From NCBI GenBank assembly GCA_963575645.1, contig OY754469.1, forward strand, positions 37,840,753 through 37,904,752: DNA of 64,000 bases. Direction: 5' to 3'. Made by a program: the position numbers and the translations under genes. This document shows positions 15,701 through 63,902 of this stretch, piece after piece. Every line of letters starts with the position of its first letter. Position 1 is the stretch's first letter. Source of the stretch: Xanthostigma xanthostigma. Taxonomy: Eukaryota; Arthropoda; Insecta; Raphidioptera; Raphidiidae. The notes under the pieces were generated by a model. It was not told where the DNA came from. It ran no database searches and was given only the letters and a program-made list of their open reading frames with translations.

Positions 15701-18700
15701 CGTTTATTCGAGAGTTTTCGGAAGCTTTTTCGGTAAGAAAAACATTCCCAAAAATGCGTATTTTTCAATGTAAATTTCAACATAGAATAATTCCACTACG
15801 AATACACGTCGCTGGTTGGCTGCCTAGAGTTCTGGTTCTTTAGATTTGAATCATTCATTATGGTAATAGATAACTGGTGTATACATCTCTTTACATAAAC
15901 ATATCTCTTTATCTATTCGAGAAAGTGATGTACTGGCTACATCCAACTTTGACGTCATCATAAACTCAGCCGTTTGAAATGAAGACATTGTTTAAATTCT
16001 TGTTTGCAATTAAGAGAAACGATATAATAATGTTTGGTTTACAATATTTGTTTGTGTATAACAAATAATGGTGCCTGTTCAAAATTATCAAAGTTTTATA
16101 GGCGGGACGACCCTATTCACCCTATTGAAAAATCGAAATATCTCCGACTTTTTAGTAACAAACTTACCTCCGGCTAATTCTGTTCCGCCCTGACTACTAT
16201 CAGAGCCTGATTGCAATTGCCTAACTAACGGAGAAATATCACCCAACATATTCTCGAATAAAGAATACATATCGGGGATTTGTTGGATCGTATTTGTGAC
16301 AGGAACCAGATCTTTGGCGGTATAGTTTCCTTGCTCATAAATAGCCGTCGTTAAAACAGACACTTTGCCAAACAGTTCTTTGAAACTGATGAATCTAATA
16401 ATTCCGGATATCAATAAAGTCACTTTATCTCCATCTTCTGAACACGTTCCATTACTAATTTTTTCAATGATTTCGTCGGAATCAAATTCATCTTTAAATA
16501 ATAGAAGTTTGCTCAGTTTATCTTGACGGCAAAAGTAACCATTTAAATCAAACGGATCTGTATCGTTAAATATCTAAAATTAAAAATAATAATGACAATA
16601 ATTGAGGTACGCAAATTACACGGCGTTTTTGTAATTGGACATCCTTAAGAAAATATACCCTGGTACGAAATAAATGAACAAGTACAGTAAACCCGCAAAT
16701 GTGAACTATTCGATAACATGAACAATCACAATTGACTATAATGGACGCTGGTGAACTCAGATATTGAGCGTCTATAATAGTATAAACAATAATAAGAAAA
16801 AATCGCAGGTATGTGGTCAAAAATATACAACGTTTCGTGTATATATTTTTTCAAGTACCTACTGCAAAATAAATAATGGTACTTGAAAAAGACTGAATAT
16901 ATAGACAAAATAGAATTTGCTCAAAATTATTAGTTCTTATAACATCAGCTATCTGTCAGTCGTTTCGGAGATATAATCTATACTAACATATAAAGCTGAA
17001 GAGTTTGTTTGTTTGGTTGATTGGTTGAACGCGCTAATCTAAGGAACTACTGGTTCAAATTGAAATTTTTTTTATGTTGGATAGCCCATTTATCGAGGAA
17101 GGCTATAGTCTATATAATATCACGCTACGACCAATAGAAGCGGAGCATCAATGAAAAATGTTGCAAAAAGTAACTCAAAATTTGTCCGTCCGACAAAAAC
17201 TTTTGAACGGTAACTCCGATCAACATGAAATTTGGACACAGCATTCATCTCGGTAAAGTACGTACCCTCCATTCGTTCTTTTGCACCCGGGTGAAACCAG
17301 GCGGGACCGCTAGTACGATATATAGCCGAAGGCTTCACTATTATTGTTGCTACCGTGTTTGATCACAATCACGTGTGGAACCGCGGGGAGCAACTAGTCT
17401 AATATAAAGTGTGAATAATCGTGCTTATGTGTTCACAATACGTGGCTCTACTGTACCTACTTCCCAAATTTAATGTCCGCAAAACAAAAGAAAATTGCAC
17501 ATTAATTTTAAATTGTCTAACTTTTTTGCTCAGACAAATTTGAAACGATTTATAGCGTAAACTATTTATGCAATAATTACCTTCGTCGTTAAAAATAATT
17601 TCAATAAACAAAATATGAATAACAAGCACAGTCCATTATTAAGAGTAAGACTTTATTAAAGTCTTGGTAGTGATTTTTAATAAAATGAAAAGCGTTTCAA
17701 TAAATCATTCGCTTCCTGTAGCTTCATTAAAATCTTAAATAAATTTTAGTAGGTATTCTGTATATTGGCTTAAGGATGGCCCTGTTTTAGTTACTAATTT
17801 TTTAATACATTTTTTGAGTTACCTGATTTAAATTTAATTCTCCACTTTGTAATGCGTCTACTACTTCATCATCAAAAGATAAATTTTCTTTTAAATATTT
17901 TCTTAAGCCCTCCCAATTTTTGATCATTGTAGATAAATCCACTAAAATTTTAATTGCAGTTAGTGTTGCCTTATTGCGTTCAAAATTATTTTTAATGTCA
18001 AAAAAAAAACAAAACCAAAATAACAAATTTTAAATCGACATTTTAAATTTTGCACATTTTCAATTCGCGACTATAAATTTCATTCATGAAAATAATAAAT
18101 ATTTTTAAAAAAAATACGGATCTAAAAATAAATATGGTAAATATACACTTTCGCGGTCACCTGGTTTTTTGGCTCTAGAAAATCGAAAAATAGATGGATT
18201 TCAATGATCTCGGTCTCAAAAAGTTCCATTTTACGGCCGATTTATGAAAAAAATTAGTTCACCCCGGAATTACAATTCGCATACCCGTTTATCGTTCACC
18301 CCGGAATTGTTTTTTTAAAAACCTCACATTTGCCCCTTCCCGTTTCACTGCGAGACAATTCGCATACCCCTTTATCGTTCACCCCGGAATTACAATTCGC
18401 ATACCCCTTTATCGTTCACCCCGGAATTACAATTCGCATACCCCTTTATCGTTCACCCCGGAATTACAATTCGCATACCCGTTTATCGTTCACCCCGGAA
18501 TTGTTTTTTTTAAAACTCCACATTTGCCCCTGCCCGTTTCACTGCGAGACAATTCGCATACCCCTTTATCGTTCACCCCGGAATTACAATTCGCATACCC
18601 CTTTCTCGTTCACCCCGGAATTGTTTTTTTAAAAAATCCACATTTGCCCCTTCCCGTTTCACTGCGAGACAATTCGCATACCCCTTTATCGTTCACCCCG

Positions 18701-21700
18701 GAATTACAATTCGCATACCCCTTTTATTAACTTTTTTGAAAATTTTTTTTTTTCAAAATATTCATTTTTTTATATAGATTGCGAAAAAAAATATACGAAC
18801 TTGATTCCACGACGTCAGAAACAGTTATAAAGGATTATATGTAGAAAGTCAATTTTTTTTGCATTTAAAGTCATGAAACTGTGAGAAATATTGATTTTTT
18901 CAATTTTCGTATTTTTTTCCATAAATCCGCCATAAAAACAAAGATTTAAAAAAAAAATTCATCGAAATCGGATGATTTTTCGATTTTCTAGAGCCAAAAA
19001 ACCAGGTGACCGCGAAAGTGTATATTTACAATAAATATATAGCAATAGTTTGCCATCGTTGTTATGAAACACACATTGTTACAGTTACAATGCAATATAA
19101 GAAAAATTGTAACTGTAGCAATGTGTATTTCATAACAACAATAGCAAACTATTGTTATATTATATTTGTGTATCATGAGTCCATGACCTTAAGTTCTGTT
19201 TCCATAATAAATAATTTGACAGACAAACAACATCGGTTCTTTGAGCGAAGATTTAGAAACTACAGCATAAATTACTTACAACGAAGCGCTTCTTTCACTG
19301 TCGGGGTTTTAAATGCATCGGAAGCAAAACTGATAAATCTAATTGTCGGTGGTATATTTTTCAAAAATGAAATAAACGAACTGTTGGTGAGAACAGGCTC
19401 TAATTTCAACGCAATTTTTCCAAATCTGAAAAAGTAGTTAATTGATCAAAAATTACTGTGATTCATCCAGTGTTCAGTTTTTGAGATATTCTTGATGGAA
19501 GTCTTCAAACGAACACGCGCTCTAAAAATTCACAGTCTAAACCCTAAGGTCATTATCGAAACCAGATTTTCTGCTGATGCGTTCTGTCACCAGTGGCGGA
19601 TTTGCCGTCTTAGCTGCCCTAGGCCCTAGGCCACGTATAGTAAGTACCAGCCGCCCTTTTTCCAGCACCCATCATATAGACTACATAATGAATTTACTTT
19701 AATGCCAAATTTTATCGAAATCGATTCAGAAATTTAGTTAACTATAATAGCTGCTAGTTTGTCAAATTTTCCGAGGTTTCAGGGATAATTGTTTAAATAA
19801 AACATTTTAATATACACTATATATGTATATACATGCACGAACTCATTTTTGAACTTAGACGTTGCGCGCTATAAAAAAAACGGTAAAATCATCTTAAAAG
19901 AGCGTTATGCGACCTAAACTATAAAATTTATAAAAAAAAAATCCTTGACAATAGCTCAACATTGTTGGTTTTAATAAGTTATCTGTTTTAAATGCATTTA
20001 AAAAAAACTCAACTGTCCAAAATGTTGATCTAAATTAGATATTCCGATCACTTTTTTAGGAAGATTATTGTTTTACGATGCGGTGCACGCTGCACCGTGC
20101 AGTGCAGCCCGTCATACGCCATAATGTGTTTTGTCACGATTGGCCGCCCTAGGCCCGGGCCTACAGGGCCTTATTAAGACAAATCCGCCACTGTCTGTCA
20201 CCCGGCATCAATATCGTCTCAATACGATGTCAACATTATAAAATATTAGGACCTAGGTCATTGCTTCAATTAACAAAAATACCAGTATGTTGAATTTGTG
20301 TTTCCGTTCAATATGTAAATGACCTTAATTTATATTATTTATAAATAATCGCTTTTGTACGAACCTCGAATCTTCGAAAGAAGGTAAGTCTGAGTTAATG
20401 TCTTCGCAATCATTGCTGAGGCCACATATAAAAGTCTGCACGAAAGGTAGCACTCCTGCACTTGGCAATGCTCGAGATTTAAACTCACCTGTTATTTATT
20501 AAGTCAATTAGTTAAGAGCTATATTGTTCCATTCATGAGAAGTTAATGAGCATTGTCTGATTTTGGTTCAAATGTTGCCCAGAGTATAAATGAATGGGAA
20601 CCGAAATGTCTTGTCATAAATAAAAACTTTATCTACTTCATAGAAATTATTGATTCTAGAACTGAGCTATCGCTTCAGCGAACTGGGGACCCGCATCAGG
20701 GACGCAAATCCGGGAAGGCGCATTGAGCCATGCGATTATGGTTACTTTATTTGAATATGTCAATCAACCAAATTTTAAGGGCGCGAAATCTCATGGGCAC
20801 CAATGAATCTAGGCAAGGCATTGTATCGCTTCATCAATATTGATGTTATTGAGCAAGAAAAATGATTGAATATAGTATTGTTCAGTTTATACTGTTTCAA
20901 TATGAAAAACAAAACACCTGAACGGATTTTTAAAGTACCATCCTTTTCATACAACCGAGCGGAAATTTAAGTTCGGATCGGATCTGACTAAGCTGATCAG
21001 GGCCTTATAGGGTTTGCCTTGTTAGGGTGGAAATGAGGCCAGCCACAACATGGCCTGATTAGAATATAAAGCATTGGTCCTGATCTGGCTAAGTTGATCA
21101 GGGCCTTATAGGTTTTTATATAGTGTTTGCCTTGTTAGGATGGAAATGAGATCAGCCGGTCTTGATCAGAATTGACCAGGCCTGTTAATGGATTTGGTAA
21201 AACTGATCAAGCCGGACAAAGTTTCGTAGGGCTTTTCCTGATAGGGCTCCAACATGGCTAACCTTATTCATACCTGATCCGGAATTCCTCAAGAGGTTTT
21301 TATCTATTAAGAGCCTGATATACGGCTGCCCTTAATAGGGCACACCATTCTTAAGCCAGATCCGGAACTGACTATGATAGAGCTTGCCTGACAAGAATTT
21401 CTACTGGGGCATCTGACAAAACTAGAAACACATTGGAAAATAATAGACTCGCGAGCAACTTTTGAACCCATGACTTATTACAATGTTCCAAATCTCAGTT
21501 TTCGACCTGTATACAAACAACTTACATGAAGGAACGTTCACAGGCTGCACCTGGACTCGAACTATGTACATTATGACGAACGTTCCAATGGCCCATAGTA
21601 ATACTGCACTGGTAATTAGCTGAAAAAAACATAATTAGCAAATAATACACAATGTCAGTTTATTGTGTTTTATCAAACGCATTTTTCACTCTCTATAAGC

Positions 21701-29330: not shown

Positions 29331-29422
29331 TCGCACTCACGTATAAGTACACAGTTTTCTAATTTCCTGGCAGACATTTAAGCCCAACTAAATGATGTGG
29401 CTTATTTATAACTTTATTAAAT

Positions 29423-30014
29423 GAATGTTGTGTCCACATTTCATGATGATCGGAGTTACCGTTCAAAAGTTTTTGTCGATAAAAAGCAGTATTTATACTT
29501 TTTTTAAGTAATAAATTTCTTTTAAATCAATAATTACTGTAATTAATAAAATATAATAAATATTTAATTGAAAACACTGTAGGAAAATTATTTTTATATA
29601 GGTACCTATAGTTATATAAGTTTTTAAATCAGCTATTAATTAGATTTATTTAATTTTAATTAATCATAAATAAAATTAAAATAAAAACATATTCGCCCAA
29701 CATGGGGCTCGAACCCACGACCCTCGCATGCTCTACCGACTGACCAAGGCGGGCTTGTGAATGTACGACCCAATATTGATATATTATGTAGTTACGGCAT
29801 TTCACCTGAATAGAAGCTGTTTTTAAGATACATTTTGCAACATTTTTCATTGATGCTCCGCTCCTATTGGTTGTAGCGTGACATTATATAGCCTATAGCC
29901 TTCCTCGATAAATGGGCTATCCAACAAAAAAAAATTCAATTTAAACCAGTAGTTCCTGAGATTAGCGTGTTCAACCAAACAAACAAACTTTTCAGCTTTA
30001 TATACTAGTATAGA
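29423..30014 (-). mobile_element. Helitron with tRNA-Lys-like insert, 3'-truncated
   Basis: Read on the minus strand it starts TCTATACTAGTATATAAAGC after A and follows the 45764 copy (TAGCCTATAGCCTTCC on the plus strand). It stops near the GTGTCCACATTTCATGATG segment and lacks the terminal CTAG. Confidence 0.8.
29694..29754 (-). pseudogene. tRNA-Lys-like sequence inside Helitron, anticodon arm deleted
   Basis: GCCCGCCTTGGTCAGTCGG...TAGAGCATGCGA then GGGTCGTGGGTTCGAGCCCC. It keeps acceptor GCCC/GGGC pairing and both internal promoter boxes, but about 12 bases around the anticodon are missing. Confidence 0.8.
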
Positions 30015-45763: not shown

Positions 45764-46491
45764 TCTATACTAATATATAAAGCTGAAGAGTTTGTTTGTT
45801 TGTTTGAACGCGATAATCTCAGGAACTACTGATTCAAATTGAAAAAAAATTTTTTTGTTGGATAGCCGATTTATCGAGGAAGGCTATAGGCTATATAATA
45901 TCACGCTACGACCAATACGAGCGGAGCATAAATGGAAAATGTTACAAAATGTATCTCAAAAATGAGCTTCTATTTAGGTGAAATGCCGTAACTAAATATA
46001 CCAATATTAGCCTAGCACATCAGAAGTCCGAATAGCTCAGTCGGTAGAGTACGTGACTCTTGATATCAGGGCCGTAAGTTCGAGCCCCACGTTAGGCGAA
46101 TAAATTTTTATTTTTTTTTATTTTCTACATTACTTTCTTTTATTTACGACTAATTAAAATTAAATAAATTTAATCAGTAACTCATTTGAGAACTGTTATA
46201 ACTATAGGGACCTATATAAAAATAATTTTCCTACAGTGTTTTCAATTAAATATTTATTATATTTTATTAATTCCAATAATTATTGATTTAAAAGAAATTT
46301 ATTATCTATATAGGTACTAAAAAATATAATTACTGCTTTTTAACGACAAAAACTTTTGAACGGTAACTCCGATCATCATGAAATTTGGACACAACATTCA
46401 TCACGGTAAACTAAGATGAATGTGCGTACTCATGTCCCTCCCTTCCCTATTTGTTCTTTTGCACCCGCGTGAAACCGGGCGGGACTGCTAG
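45764..46491 (+). mobile_element. Helitron with tRNA-Lys-like insert, complete ends
   Basis: 5' TCTATACTAATATATAAAGC after A; 3' CGCGTGAAACCGGGCGGGAC then CTAG followed by T. No Rep/helicase coding, so non-autonomous. Carries the tRNA-like block at 46026-46098. Confidence 0.9.
46026..46098 (+). pseudogene. tRNA-Lys(CTT)-like sequence inside Helitron
   Basis: TAGCTCAGTCGGTAGAG (A box), GACTCTTGATATC around a CTT anticodon position, and AGTTCGAGCCCCACG (B box). Length about 73. The acceptor stem pairs poorly (GTCCGAA/GTTAGGC), so a functional tRNA is unlikely. Confidence 0.82.
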
Positions 46492-51244: not shown

Positions 51245-51589
51245 TGTTTAATTACTTTTTAAGTGTAATTAGTAAAGTTCACATCACAAAAATTAATACA
51301 AATATTCGCACCAGAAATAAAGATTATAATAGTTGGCAAAACCAAAAGTGCACATCCCGCAAGTTTTCCACTGTATGATAAAAAAATAACAATTAAAAAA
51401 TATTTTTAATAAATTTAAAAAGATTTAAAAATTTAAAGAAATAAATAATTAAAAATTGAAAAAATATTTTTTTTTTAAGTTTGCAAAAATAAAAAAAATT
51501 AAGAACTATACATAATATAATATATAATTAATATCAAGTGGAATAAAATAAAACAAAATAAAAAGAAAAAAAAAAGAAAAAATTCAATG

Positions 51590-51662
51590 ATATCGTAAGG
51601 AATCGAACCCAGGACCTTGCCCTTGGGGATCCAACGGCATAACCATTACACCACGGCTGCCT
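51590..51662 (-). pseudogene. tRNA-like sequence inside unclassified element (copy 1)
   Basis: GTGGTGTAATGGTTATGCC (A-box region) and CTGGGTTCGATTCC (B box) at tRNA spacing. The isotype is unclear (Gln- or Gly-like A box) and stems are degraded. Confidence 0.75.
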
Positions 51663-51917
51663 AATACATGTAGTGGTGTTATCACGGTATACAAGTGTAG
51701 CACTTGTTTTATGGATTACACTATATTTACACCGCAATTATTAATATATTGTTTTTAATTAGCTGTCAAAAATAATAAAAAATAAAACTGTTTATAAAAA
51801 TTAAACTACTGAACACATTTTAGTGAATTTAAATAGGGTTCTGGTCTGATAGTAAACAAAGTGAATAAAATATAACCCAAGGCAATCCGACCAAAATTGC
51901 GATCTGTAGAGTCGTGA

Positions 51918-60000: not shown

Positions 60001-63000
60001 ATGCAAAGTGCACTGAGAACCACGTAGAGCGAAGAATTGTCAAAATATTAATTATAAAATGAAAAGATTCCTCTTTATCTATATGCAGACAACTGTTCAC
60101 GTTGGGAGTGGCGCAATAATTCGACACGATTGCGTCCCCCTGTCTATTATCCCCCCATATTCATTTTATATCCCAAAAGACGTAAAAATAATAGGTGTAG
60201 AAAGTTTTCACGTTAGTAAAATAACAATTTTTACTGACGGATTGAGCAAGCAAAAGGTGTCAATTTTACCAAGCGTTAAATTCATTAACTATTTTGCAAT
60301 TGTTATTTAAATATTACTAGGTCTAATGATTCAATTATTAATAAAGAAGATTAGTTAAATGAAATAGTTACTTCATGTTTGTACAGTGAAACTTTCTTGA
60401 AACGAATAAAATATAAATCTGGCAATGTTTTATCGTTTTATGGATAGCAAATGATACAAACATGAAAAGCAGCTATTTTATAGAAGAGTTAATAGCGGAC
60501 CAAAGCACACTACTTCAACTTTGTAAAAATAACGGTGTGTTCCTATAATGACGTCATGAATCGACGCCATAGTGTTGATTCGTTCCGAAATATACTGGCC
60601 AGAGCGTTGACGTATTATTATTTCACTCGTCCACCAAAAGTAATTGTTTACTTTGTTGAGAAGACAGTACTGCAAATAACAACTAAAAAATTTCACGAAG
60701 TTTGATGCACACACGCCCGATTAACTATTTATGCTGTCACAGCTGTCTCACCAGTACATATGCTAGCACACCAGTACAATTATGGCATGGGATTCATGAC
60801 GTCATTAGCACTGGCCAGTATACTGGCTTATATTTCGGAACATACCCTAATTAAGTTTCACCCCTAAATTGCAATCTTTAACCTGGTATGGCAGTTAAAT
60901 TCCACCAATCAAACGGTATGGCAATTTTTATTTCGTTATTAAGTTAGTTCCTGCTTTGTGTAAATGAGTGAAATATTGCAATTTTCCTCATTTTAAAAAT
61001 TTTATAGGGCTCACCCCACCGACGTTCTTTAGCCAGACCGAGCATTCCTTGTTTGGGGAGATCTAAATTCACATTTTTGCTTATTTCCAGCTGTGTGAAA
61101 ATGGGGACGTTCTCGAGACCGCTATCTTTTACCCCAGTCCACCCACGCGTGCGTGACTTGAGTTCATATATTGCAATCTTAAAAATTTATTTAGCAACAC
61201 TAAAATGTACAATTCTTCGAAATACTAAACTTTATAATCTTGTTTATACTTTTATCAATATTTGTATTTATTTATTTATATTTACTTCTGATTTTTTCGA
61301 TTAATACTTTAGAAATAAACGGGGTGACAATTTTCGCAGTTTTTATTTTAGGAATTATAAAAATATATCAATATTTTCAATGGCTCTCCAGCTTTCATTA
61401 GACATTCCATTCGATTAAGTTGAACTTTTTTATTCATTTTTTTAATAATCAGTTTGACCACCTGTTATTCCCTATAATTATCTGAATAAAATATTTACAT
61501 CTAAATCACATGATAGCTTTAATTATGTCAAATTTCAAGTGTCTATAGCTTTTACAGTTTGGCTATGAGAGCTTTATGACAGACGTCCGTTTTTCCGATT
61601 TTGGTACGGAACACTAAAAAATAATTTAATTGTTGTTATAAGGTCATCTACTATGGAAAATAACGAATTACAAAGCCAAGCTAGAGAACTCTAAAGAAAA
61701 CGATACAGTCATAAAAAGTCCTATATTTTATGATAGAAAATACGGCTATGCGATTCGAGTGAGTATATTTTATTTATCTATACTAATATATAAAGCTGAA
61801 GAGTTTGTTTGTTTGTTTGAACGCGCTAATCTCAAGAACTACTGGTTTAAATTGAAAAAAATTGTTTTTGTTGGATAGCCCATTTATTGAGGAAGGCTAT
61901 AGGCTATATAATATCACGCTACGACCATTAGGAGCGGAGCATTAATGAAAAATGTTGCAAAATGTATCTCAAAAATAAGCTTCTATACAGGTGAAATGCA
62001 CTAACTAAATATACTCATATTAGCGTTGTCCGTATACAACGTCGTATGGCTCAATCGGTAGAGCATGCGACTGTCAATATCAGGGTCGTGAGTTCGAGCC
62101 CCACGTTGGGCGAAAATATTTTTATTTTTTTTTTTATTTTCTAGATTACTTTCTTCTAAGGCTTAGATTTAAATTTATTTTAATTTTATTTATTTAATTA
62201 AAAAAAAATTATTAGTTTAAAAAAGTATAAATAGGTACTACTTTTTATCGACAAAAGCTTTTGAACGGTAACTCCGATCATCATGAAATTTGGACACAAC
62301 ATTCATCTCGGTAAACTAAGATGAATGTGTGTACTCATGTTCCTCCCTTCCCCATTCGTTTTTTTACACCCGGGTGAAACCGAACGGGACCGCTAGTAGT
62401 AAATACAGTCAAATCGCGTTATGAACCTGGTCGAGGGGGGAATATAATTCTCAGCGATCGACTGTCGCAAGCTACATTTCCCCTACTTTTTGAGTGAGTG
62501 TATAAATACCTACATGAATTGTTTTTTGTAATTTATATTAAACATACTTATAGAAAAAATTCCGATGAATCGATTCCTGCCATCCGCAACCCTGTATCTC
62601 TTTTAGTCTTTGAAGTACAGCCATTTTAAACCATTCAACTTTTTATACATTTTAATCCACCTTAACTTCTAATCTAAACGAGCTTAACGAGATACGAATT
62701 TGATTTTATCAAATTTAATATCTATCGGTTCCCTCAGGGGAAACATTGGAATCTAGTTTACTTTTTGGGAATCAGCGCTCCCAGGAACCCGAGCTGGCAG
62801 ATTTAGTAATACACACATAGACGCTGATGACCTCAGCTGTTAAGCGTCTACAATTTATCTAATTACAGGCAGAAATTCATTTAAACGGTATTGGAAAGTG
62901 GAAGGATCGTCATATGATTGCATCAGTTGAAATTGTTCCAGGAGAATGGGACGACCTTTTAGACTGGCCCTGCGTCCTTGCGGCCACCGTAATCCTAAGA

Positions 63001-63056: not shown

Positions 63057-63902
63057 GCACATACCGCTAAACTAGCGGTATGTGCTTTATTATCGCTTTG
63101 TGCGTCAGAGCTGACTTTCGTTCATATAAGAAGTTATATCTAAGTTAATTTCACACGAAATCCATTCAAATTGAAGCTTTTTGAAAAGAGGAGATTCTAA
63201 TCTATAAAACAGAACCATTTTTAAATCAATTCGAGTTCATAAATACTATTAAAATTGTAATTGAAAATCACAAACAGCAGTTGTCGGTTGGTCTGTACGT
63301 ATGTACGTATATATGTCACGACTCTACAGATCGCAATTTTGGTCGGATTGCCTTGGGTTATATTTTATTCACTTTGTTTACTATCAGACCAGAACCCTAT
63401 TTAAATTCATTAAAATGTGTTCAGTAGTTTAATTTTTATAAACAGTTTTATTTTATTATTTTTGACAGCTAATAGTTTAAAAAAACAATATAATAATTGC
63501 TGTGTAAATATAGTGTAATCCATAAAACAAGTGCTACACTTCTATACCGTGATAACACCACTACACGTAGTAGGGCGCCGTGGCGTAATGGTTATGCCGT
63601 TGGATCCCAAGGGCAAGGTCCTGGGTTCGATTCCTTACAAGATCATTGATTTTTTTCTTTTTTTTTTCTTTTTATTTTGTTTTATTTTATTCCACTTGAT
63701 ATTAATTATATATTATATTATGTATAGTTCTTAATTTTTTTTATTTTTGCAAACTTAAAAAAAATATTTTTTCAATTTTTAATTATTTATTTCTTTAAAT
63801 TTTTAAATCTTTTTAAATTTATTAAAAATATTTTTTAATTGTTATTTTTTTATCATACAGTGGAAAACTTGCGGGATGTGCACTTTTGGTTTTGCCAACT
63901 AT
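63057..63902 (+). mobile_element. Unclassified tRNA-bearing element, copy 2
   Basis: Starts 32 bases after the last TRAF exon seen, with the perfect palindrome GCACATACCGCTAAACTAGC... (63057-63085). Ends GCACTTTTGGTTTTGCCAAC near 63900. Colinear with the inverted copy at 51329-52236; the body is AT-rich with a tRNA-like block. Confidence 0.82.
63573..63644 (+). pseudogene. tRNA-like sequence inside unclassified element (copy 2)
   Basis: GCCGTGGCGTAATGGTTATG (A-box region) and CCTGGGTTCGATTCC (B box). It is less like any one isotype than the Helitron tRNA; stems do not close fully. Confidence 0.75.

Follow-up and report, generated by a model that had tools for sequence, protein, structure and literature searches.

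Helitrons, which are rolling-circle DNA elements, have a habit of carrying host DNA with them. In the silkworm, going by the accessible part of the study (PMC3789558), they have captured host DNA, namely gene fragments, and have been amplified in bursts; the captured pieces were looked for with BLASTX against proteins, so that a captured tRNA would not be detectable, and the word tRNA occurs 0 times in the text as available. Two non-autonomous insect Helitrons, Hel-2 (PMC4344730) and Lep1 (PMC4038834), are on their partly accessible descriptions among the systems closest to the one that we present here, a family of Helitrons that bears a block derived from tRNA-Lys(CTT). The family was found in a stretch of 64,000 nucleotides of Xanthostigma xanthostigma (assembly GCA_963575645.1, contig OY754469.1, positions 37,840,753 to 37,904,752 of the forward strand), which we call the window, and was followed through the genome that includes it (623 Mb, 28 contigs). 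Hel-2 is like the present family in having a 5′-TC, a 3′-CTAG, a flanking A and T and a 3′ stem-loop, and unlike it in that no tRNA cargo is described, the word tRNA occurring 0 times in the part of that source that could be consulted (PMC4344730).

tRNA sequences have been tied to other mobile elements. A cluster of tRNA-Cys genes in Arabidopsis overlaps annotated Helitrons, and the 2023 paper reporting it, as far as its text is accessible, treats Helitron capture as hypothetical, and as the first capture of a non-coding RNA by this class if Helitrons were the cause (PMC10701932). That case is like ours in linking tRNA genes to Helitron annotation; unlike it, the present family shows the element ends, the dispersed copies and the inheritance directly. 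The Helenus long terminal repeat (LTR) retrotransposons are also mobile elements other than short interspersed elements (SINEs) with a tRNA-derived block and a possible RNA polymerase III (Pol III) promoter, and hymenopteran Helenus sequences have been aligned with tRNA-Lys-CTT (PMC10886601); Helenus is a retrotransposon, whereas the element here is a rolling-circle DNA element, and the word Helitron is absent from the accessible text. Finally, lepidopteran tRNA-derived SINEs have, like our block, a tRNA head with A and B boxes and, unlike it, a further body and a 3′ tail, in the part of the source available (PMC8010984). Apart from the hypothetical Arabidopsis case, we found no tRNA-carrying Helitron family in a literature search that left subscription journals mostly outside and reached its sources in part.

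The window holds four copies of the Helitron (Table 1). As the initial annotation had read from the letters, and as the alignments bear out, three of them contain a tRNA-Lys-like block, which sits at one and the same internal position, has the same orientation with respect to the element and is backed by an AT-rich stretch, and the fourth, at 16977-17313, has no block and joins the flanks directly. TC...CTAG ends with an A before and a T after are exact for the copies at 45764-46491, 61777-62396 and 16977-17313. The same reading had given such ends to the copy at 29421-30014 as well; this copy is a minus-strand one whose 3′ end is lost, and because it stops inside the 3′ module it has no CTAG terminus. 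The longest open reading frame overlapping the 45764-46491 element has 49 codons; the element is non-autonomous and too short to encode a RepHel protein.

Throughout, the reference tRNA-Lys(CTT) is a canonical sequence that was typed in. A search with the whole 728-base element gave 44 matches, from the 40 scored of 5291 first-look candidates, and the 623 Mb hold 213 exact copies of a 32-mer of the tRNA against 0 of its reversed control. Taken together, these numbers say that the block is not there by chance.

Does the block move with the Helitron? When loci are collected by the block (best 40, namely 39 loci examined and the window copy), the Helitron 5′ module, whole or in part, and segment L, the left flank of the block, lie upstream in 40/40, and a piece of the 3′ module lies downstream in 36/39. 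With the canonical tRNA-Lys(CTT) as query (20 of the best 40 loci), segment L and/or segment A, the AT-rich segment behind the block, flank the match in 20/20 and the 5′ module is there in 18/20; with the 32-mer as query (20 loci, out of 100 of the 213 exact ones) the numbers are 20/20 for L together with A and 17/20 for the 5′ module. In none of these three samples did we see a free copy of the block outside a Helitron context. Searching from the other side, by the 5′ module and L without the block, we find the block in 18/20 copies (20 of the best 40), where the match spans 71-73 bases in 13 and lacks 8-29 bases in 5, and the other two (L124 and L139) break after the first 10 or 17 bases of it. 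The same kind of search in the young subfamily IIIb (16 of the best 40) gives the block in 16/16. The copies show a fixed order and orientation, Helitron ends, a divergence near that of the flanks and inheritance of the block with the Helitron. The tRNA-derived passenger of this family is real and inherited, a variant of the way in which Helitrons carry host DNA.

The block has accompanied the element in three or more subfamilies, of which one is young. Against the reference tRNA, the subfamily I consensus is the same at 72/73 positions, the sole change being A29 to C; the consensus of II, the type of the 45764 copy, has 7 differences, that of IIIa 7 and that of IIIb 11. Copies of IIIb differ from their own consensus by only about 2% (block 0.0206, segment A 0.0201), so their burst is recent. 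What lies between segment A and the 3′ end is different and longer in subfamily III and in long copies of I; in this longer variant (L127, L132, L179-L183, and the I and III consensuses) there are extra AT-rich bases, and the 3′ module begins differently.

The element ends are those of Helitrons well beyond the window. In the block-bearing set of 39 copies, the 5′ TC is present in 34/36 readable cases and CTAG in 36/39 (one of these a later CTAG), an A precedes the 5′ end in 30/36 readable cases, and a T follows CTAG in 34/36. The block-less set gives TC in 21/24 readable cases, CTAG in 24/30, A before in 21/24 and T after in 24/24. In IIIb an A precedes the 5′ end in 16/16, one copy beginning with GC for TC; of five copies read on the 3′ side, 4/5 have CTAG followed by T and unrelated flanks, and the remaining one is truncated. 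The hairpin predicted near the 3′ end, with its stem in 46452-46491, is modest and comes from one copy (−8.4 kcal/mol, z −2.3, 3/200 shuffles as good). The target site itself seems to be longer than A and T: counting the T after CTAG as +1, positions +7 to +9 are A in 51/59, T in 46/59 and A in 46/59 of the 59 copies with a readable 3′ flank. In one locus (L076, 1333-1829) a block-bearing copy is followed end to end by a block-less copy of the same family.

The reading that most probably explains these observations is that a non-autonomous Helitron family obtained a tRNA-Lys(CTT) gene once and that rolling-circle transposition has since spread it as a neutral, decaying passenger. Host DNA consisting of upstream AT-rich DNA, a tRNA-Lys(CTT) gene and its T-run terminator would have been acquired a single time; rolling-circle transposition, with enzymes presumably supplied by autonomous Helitrons, would then have multiplied the element; and the tRNA would have ridden along through at least three subfamilies, decaying both in individual copies and across subfamilies. 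We infer a tRNA gene, not a SINE, as the source, a single acquisition, and copies that are silent or irrelevant as tRNAs. On this reading, numerous copies, several subfamilies and a young burst all display the capture, and the fate of a mobile Pol III gene becomes traceable.

Several points weigh against this reading. The loci behind all the counts given here are best-scoring or first-listed matches, not random draws. We found no host tRNA-Lys(CTT) gene with flanks like L and A that could be the source. The genome has 89 matches to the Rep domain (PF14214), and in the three stretches of these that were searched (L120-L122) there is no autonomous RepHel partner with matching ends. If a SINE had inserted in the ancestral element, its target duplications may since have decayed. 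And the trees that we built, with support that is weak both ways, fit a change from block-less to block-bearing as well as the reverse.

The block-less subfamily is where this direction matters. Among the best 40 loci for the block-less copy, all 30 examined are joined at TTTGTCCGTC and CGACAAAAAC, with small variants. The window copy at 16977-17313 had been offered as the state before capture, a suggestion that is weakened: the 5′ module of the block-less consensus differs from that of the block-bearing subfamily I at 2/207 positions (loci L074 and L076 of II, L124 and L139 of I and L150 of III were left out of the consensuses used here), and because its subfamily is so close to a block-bearing one in the 5′ part, the copy is not a safe stand-in for the pre-capture state. 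Subfamily III is more distant in this module, the I and IIIa consensuses differing at 15/215. A tree on the 5′ part as far as CTCAAAA accounts for the block-less copies with 2 changes, versus a shuffled mean of 21.5. When that end is trimmed off and type III is included (leaving out 1 block-less copy and 3 of type III), the number is 13 changes versus a shuffled mean of 23.4, and subfamily III is a supported clade (99/99) in one tree. Since III bears the block too, the block perhaps predates the split, and the block-less copy may be the product of a later deletion instead of a pre-capture state. As a counterpoint, subfamily III is the youngest burst and has had a longer time to diverge.

The alternative that survives best, though we regard it as unlikely, is that a tRNA-Lys-derived SINE inserted once in an ancestral Helitron and was multiplied by it afterwards. 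With its tRNA head, its A and B boxes and the AT-rich stretch behind them, the unit looks like a simple SINE, and lepidopteran SINEs with tRNA heads exist (PMC8010984, in its accessible part). A tRNA-Lys(CTT)-like pseudogene (L119) does stand outside Helitron flanks, a single find made by an exact 19-mer. The window itself holds two near-alike repeats that also derive from a tRNA but are of a different kind, at 63571-63653 on the plus strand and 51580-51663 on the minus strand; both have A and B boxes by the strict pattern, and they are probably a separate SINE family.

SINEs are as a rule flanked by target duplications, and none is seen for the present block: by eye, in comparison with the block-less subfamily, neither joint has one, bearing in mind that old ones could have decayed and that deletion may have produced the block-less form. 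Among the sampled copies we saw no body or tail of a SINE that recurs away from the Helitron, and the block itself was found outside a Helitron context in none of the loci sampled by 32-mer or block. The tRNA is not followed by CCA but, within about 10 bases, by a T-run, as in the host tRNA-Lys(TTT) genes examined for comparison, which are plain; a T-run right behind the tRNA would halt a SINE transcript ahead of any body. The absence of a SINE body or tail and of CCA, together with that T-run, favours a captured tRNA gene. The 72/73 identity of the subfamily I consensus to the reference tRNA points the same way, versus 64% and 66.5% for two SINE heads in the accessible part of PMC8010984. The initial annotation had proposed a tRNA or a tRNA-derived SINE, captured and spread by rolling circle; what stands is a tRNA-derived block multiplied by the Helitron, and of its two options the gene fits better than the SINE.

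The captured-gene reading treats the block as a neutral passenger, and we next consider whether it has instead been kept for a function. That the Helitrons carry a working Pol III unit (A and B boxes and terminator), kept in the lineages that transpose while the tRNA fold is let go, we regard as very unlikely. If true, a Pol III start site or tRNA-Lys(CTT) copies would have been spread genome-wide, and could affect transposition, silencing or the host tRNA pool. It is more improbable still that the block is kept because a Pol III small RNA would be useful to the element or the host, or because copies would serve as tRNA-Lys(CTT) genes.

On the side of function, the A and B boxes look intact in the subfamily consensuses while the tRNA stems erode. 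The B box of III is uninformative, III having been reached by an exact 32-mer that spans 10/11 B-box positions, and is not used as evidence of selection. By a strict consensus pattern, both boxes are present in 9/20 copies of I, 5/12 of II and 10/16 of IIIb, and some copies, going by these motifs, look able to bind Pol III factors. Among the 20 copies of subfamily I that were chosen without using the block, 9 pass the Rfam tRNA cut-off and 7 are called by ARAGORN (Lys(CTT) in six cases, Asn in one). Type II passes in 1/8 copies picked by the whole element and in 8/11 picked by the block, and copies picked by the tRNA pass in 20/20, which is a biased choice. A canonical host tRNA-Lys(CTT) gene was not found in the assembly: the core of the reference sequence occurs once, in the pseudogene L119, and a looser pattern adds one place; an error in the reference could hide a host gene. 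Genome annotators should take warning from these calls, as ARAGORN labels some copies tRNA-Lys and Rfam labels some tRNA.

On the other side, IIIb, the youngest subfamily sampled, passes the Rfam cut-off in 0/16 copies, and its tRNA fold is lost. In the window ARAGORN finds no tRNA, and no stretch reaches the Rfam tRNA cut-off of 29 bits; the two blocks that were scored, at 46026 and 62041, reach 18.2 and 24.8 bits with loose-threshold scoring. The boxes had been reported for the window blocks, and each block does have one by the strict pattern, those at 46026 and 62041 passing A and not B and that at 29694 passing B and not A; none of the three has both. The proposal that an internal promoter could drive Pol III transcripts from the element is not borne out as far as the letters can tell, the window copies being defective and the block diverging about as its flanks do.

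The divergence figures are as follows. Measured outside CpG sites, subfamily I copies (n = 18, without L124 and L139) depart from their consensus by 0.064 (block), 0.050 (5′ module), 0.040 (L) and 0.114 (A), with 0.070 in stems and 0.065 in loops; the value for A is inflated because A is rearranged in some copies, and those for the 5′ module and L err on the low side, these two parts having been the basis of the search. (L124 and L139 are excluded from the pooled CpG and stem/loop counts and kept in the per-copy means.) For the 13 copies of I with an alignable A, the values are 0.064 (block), 0.059 (5′ module), 0.038 (L) and 0.054 (A). Paired tests over 18 copies of I give a difference of +0.018 for the block minus the 5′ module and L (p 0.10 and 0.13), −0.011 for the block minus all flanks (p 0.41 and 0.80) and −0.043 for the block minus A alone (p 0.10 and 0.30). 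In type II (copy c4 excluded), the 12 copies picked by the whole element have 0.054 in the block and 0.031-0.046 in the other segments, and 26 other copies, mostly picked by the block, have 0.042 versus 0.031-0.063. The subfamily consensuses differ from one another by 0.082-0.137 in the block, compared with 0.053-0.092 in the 5′ module, 0.032-0.088 in A and 0.143-0.148 in L, which puts the block above the first two and below L. We found no constraint on the block in these comparisons of the sampled sets; it behaves as a passenger, diverging about as much as its flanks.

Finally, independent SINE insertions into separate Helitron copies, for which own duplications and different neighbours in each copy had been named as the mark, deserve next to no credence and are rejected: nothing was found in their favour, no duplication is seen by eye at the joints, and the sampled copies share position, orientation and the L and A flanks.

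Table 1. Features of the four Helitron copies in the window, in window coordinates.
Feature	Position	Strand	Remarks
Non-autonomous Helitron, block-bearing, type II	45764..46491	+	TC...CTAG inserted between A and T
Helitron 5′ module	45764..45961	+	Common to sampled subfamilies
Segment L, left flank of tRNA block	45962..46025	+	64 bases; common to block-bearing subfamilies
tRNA-Lys(CTT)-derived block	46026..46098	+	73 bases; degenerate; 18.2 bits against a cut-off of 29
A-box-like motif	46033-46044	+	Within block 46026..46098
B-box-like motif	46077-46087	+	Within block 46026..46098; one mismatch
AT-rich segment A, behind block	46099..46343	+	245 bases
3′ module	46344..46491	+	Predicted hairpin, then CTAG at the end
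Second block-bearing copy	61777..62396	+	Both ends complete; AT-rich segment shorter
tRNA-Lys-like block of second copy	62041..62112	+	24.8 bits, under the cut-off of 29
Third block-bearing copy	29421..30014	−	3′ end lost, no CTAG
tRNA-Lys-like block of third copy	29694..29754	−	61 bases; about 12 bases of the anticodon region missing
Copy of the block-less subfamily	16977..17313	+	Flanks joined directly at ...TTTGTCCGTC|CGACAAAAAC...

In the 45764-46491 copy, segment A starts with T-runs (46105-46109 and 46111-46119) of the type that ends Pol III transcripts. Viral contigs gave 0 matches to the one exact pattern used. Many of the 89 PF14214 matches lie in the reading frames of autonomous Helitrons, some 1555 codons long, and score identically; these identical scores suggest that autonomous Helitrons have been recently active. 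The window also contains, at 18257-18742, a repeat array with a 37/120-base spacing.
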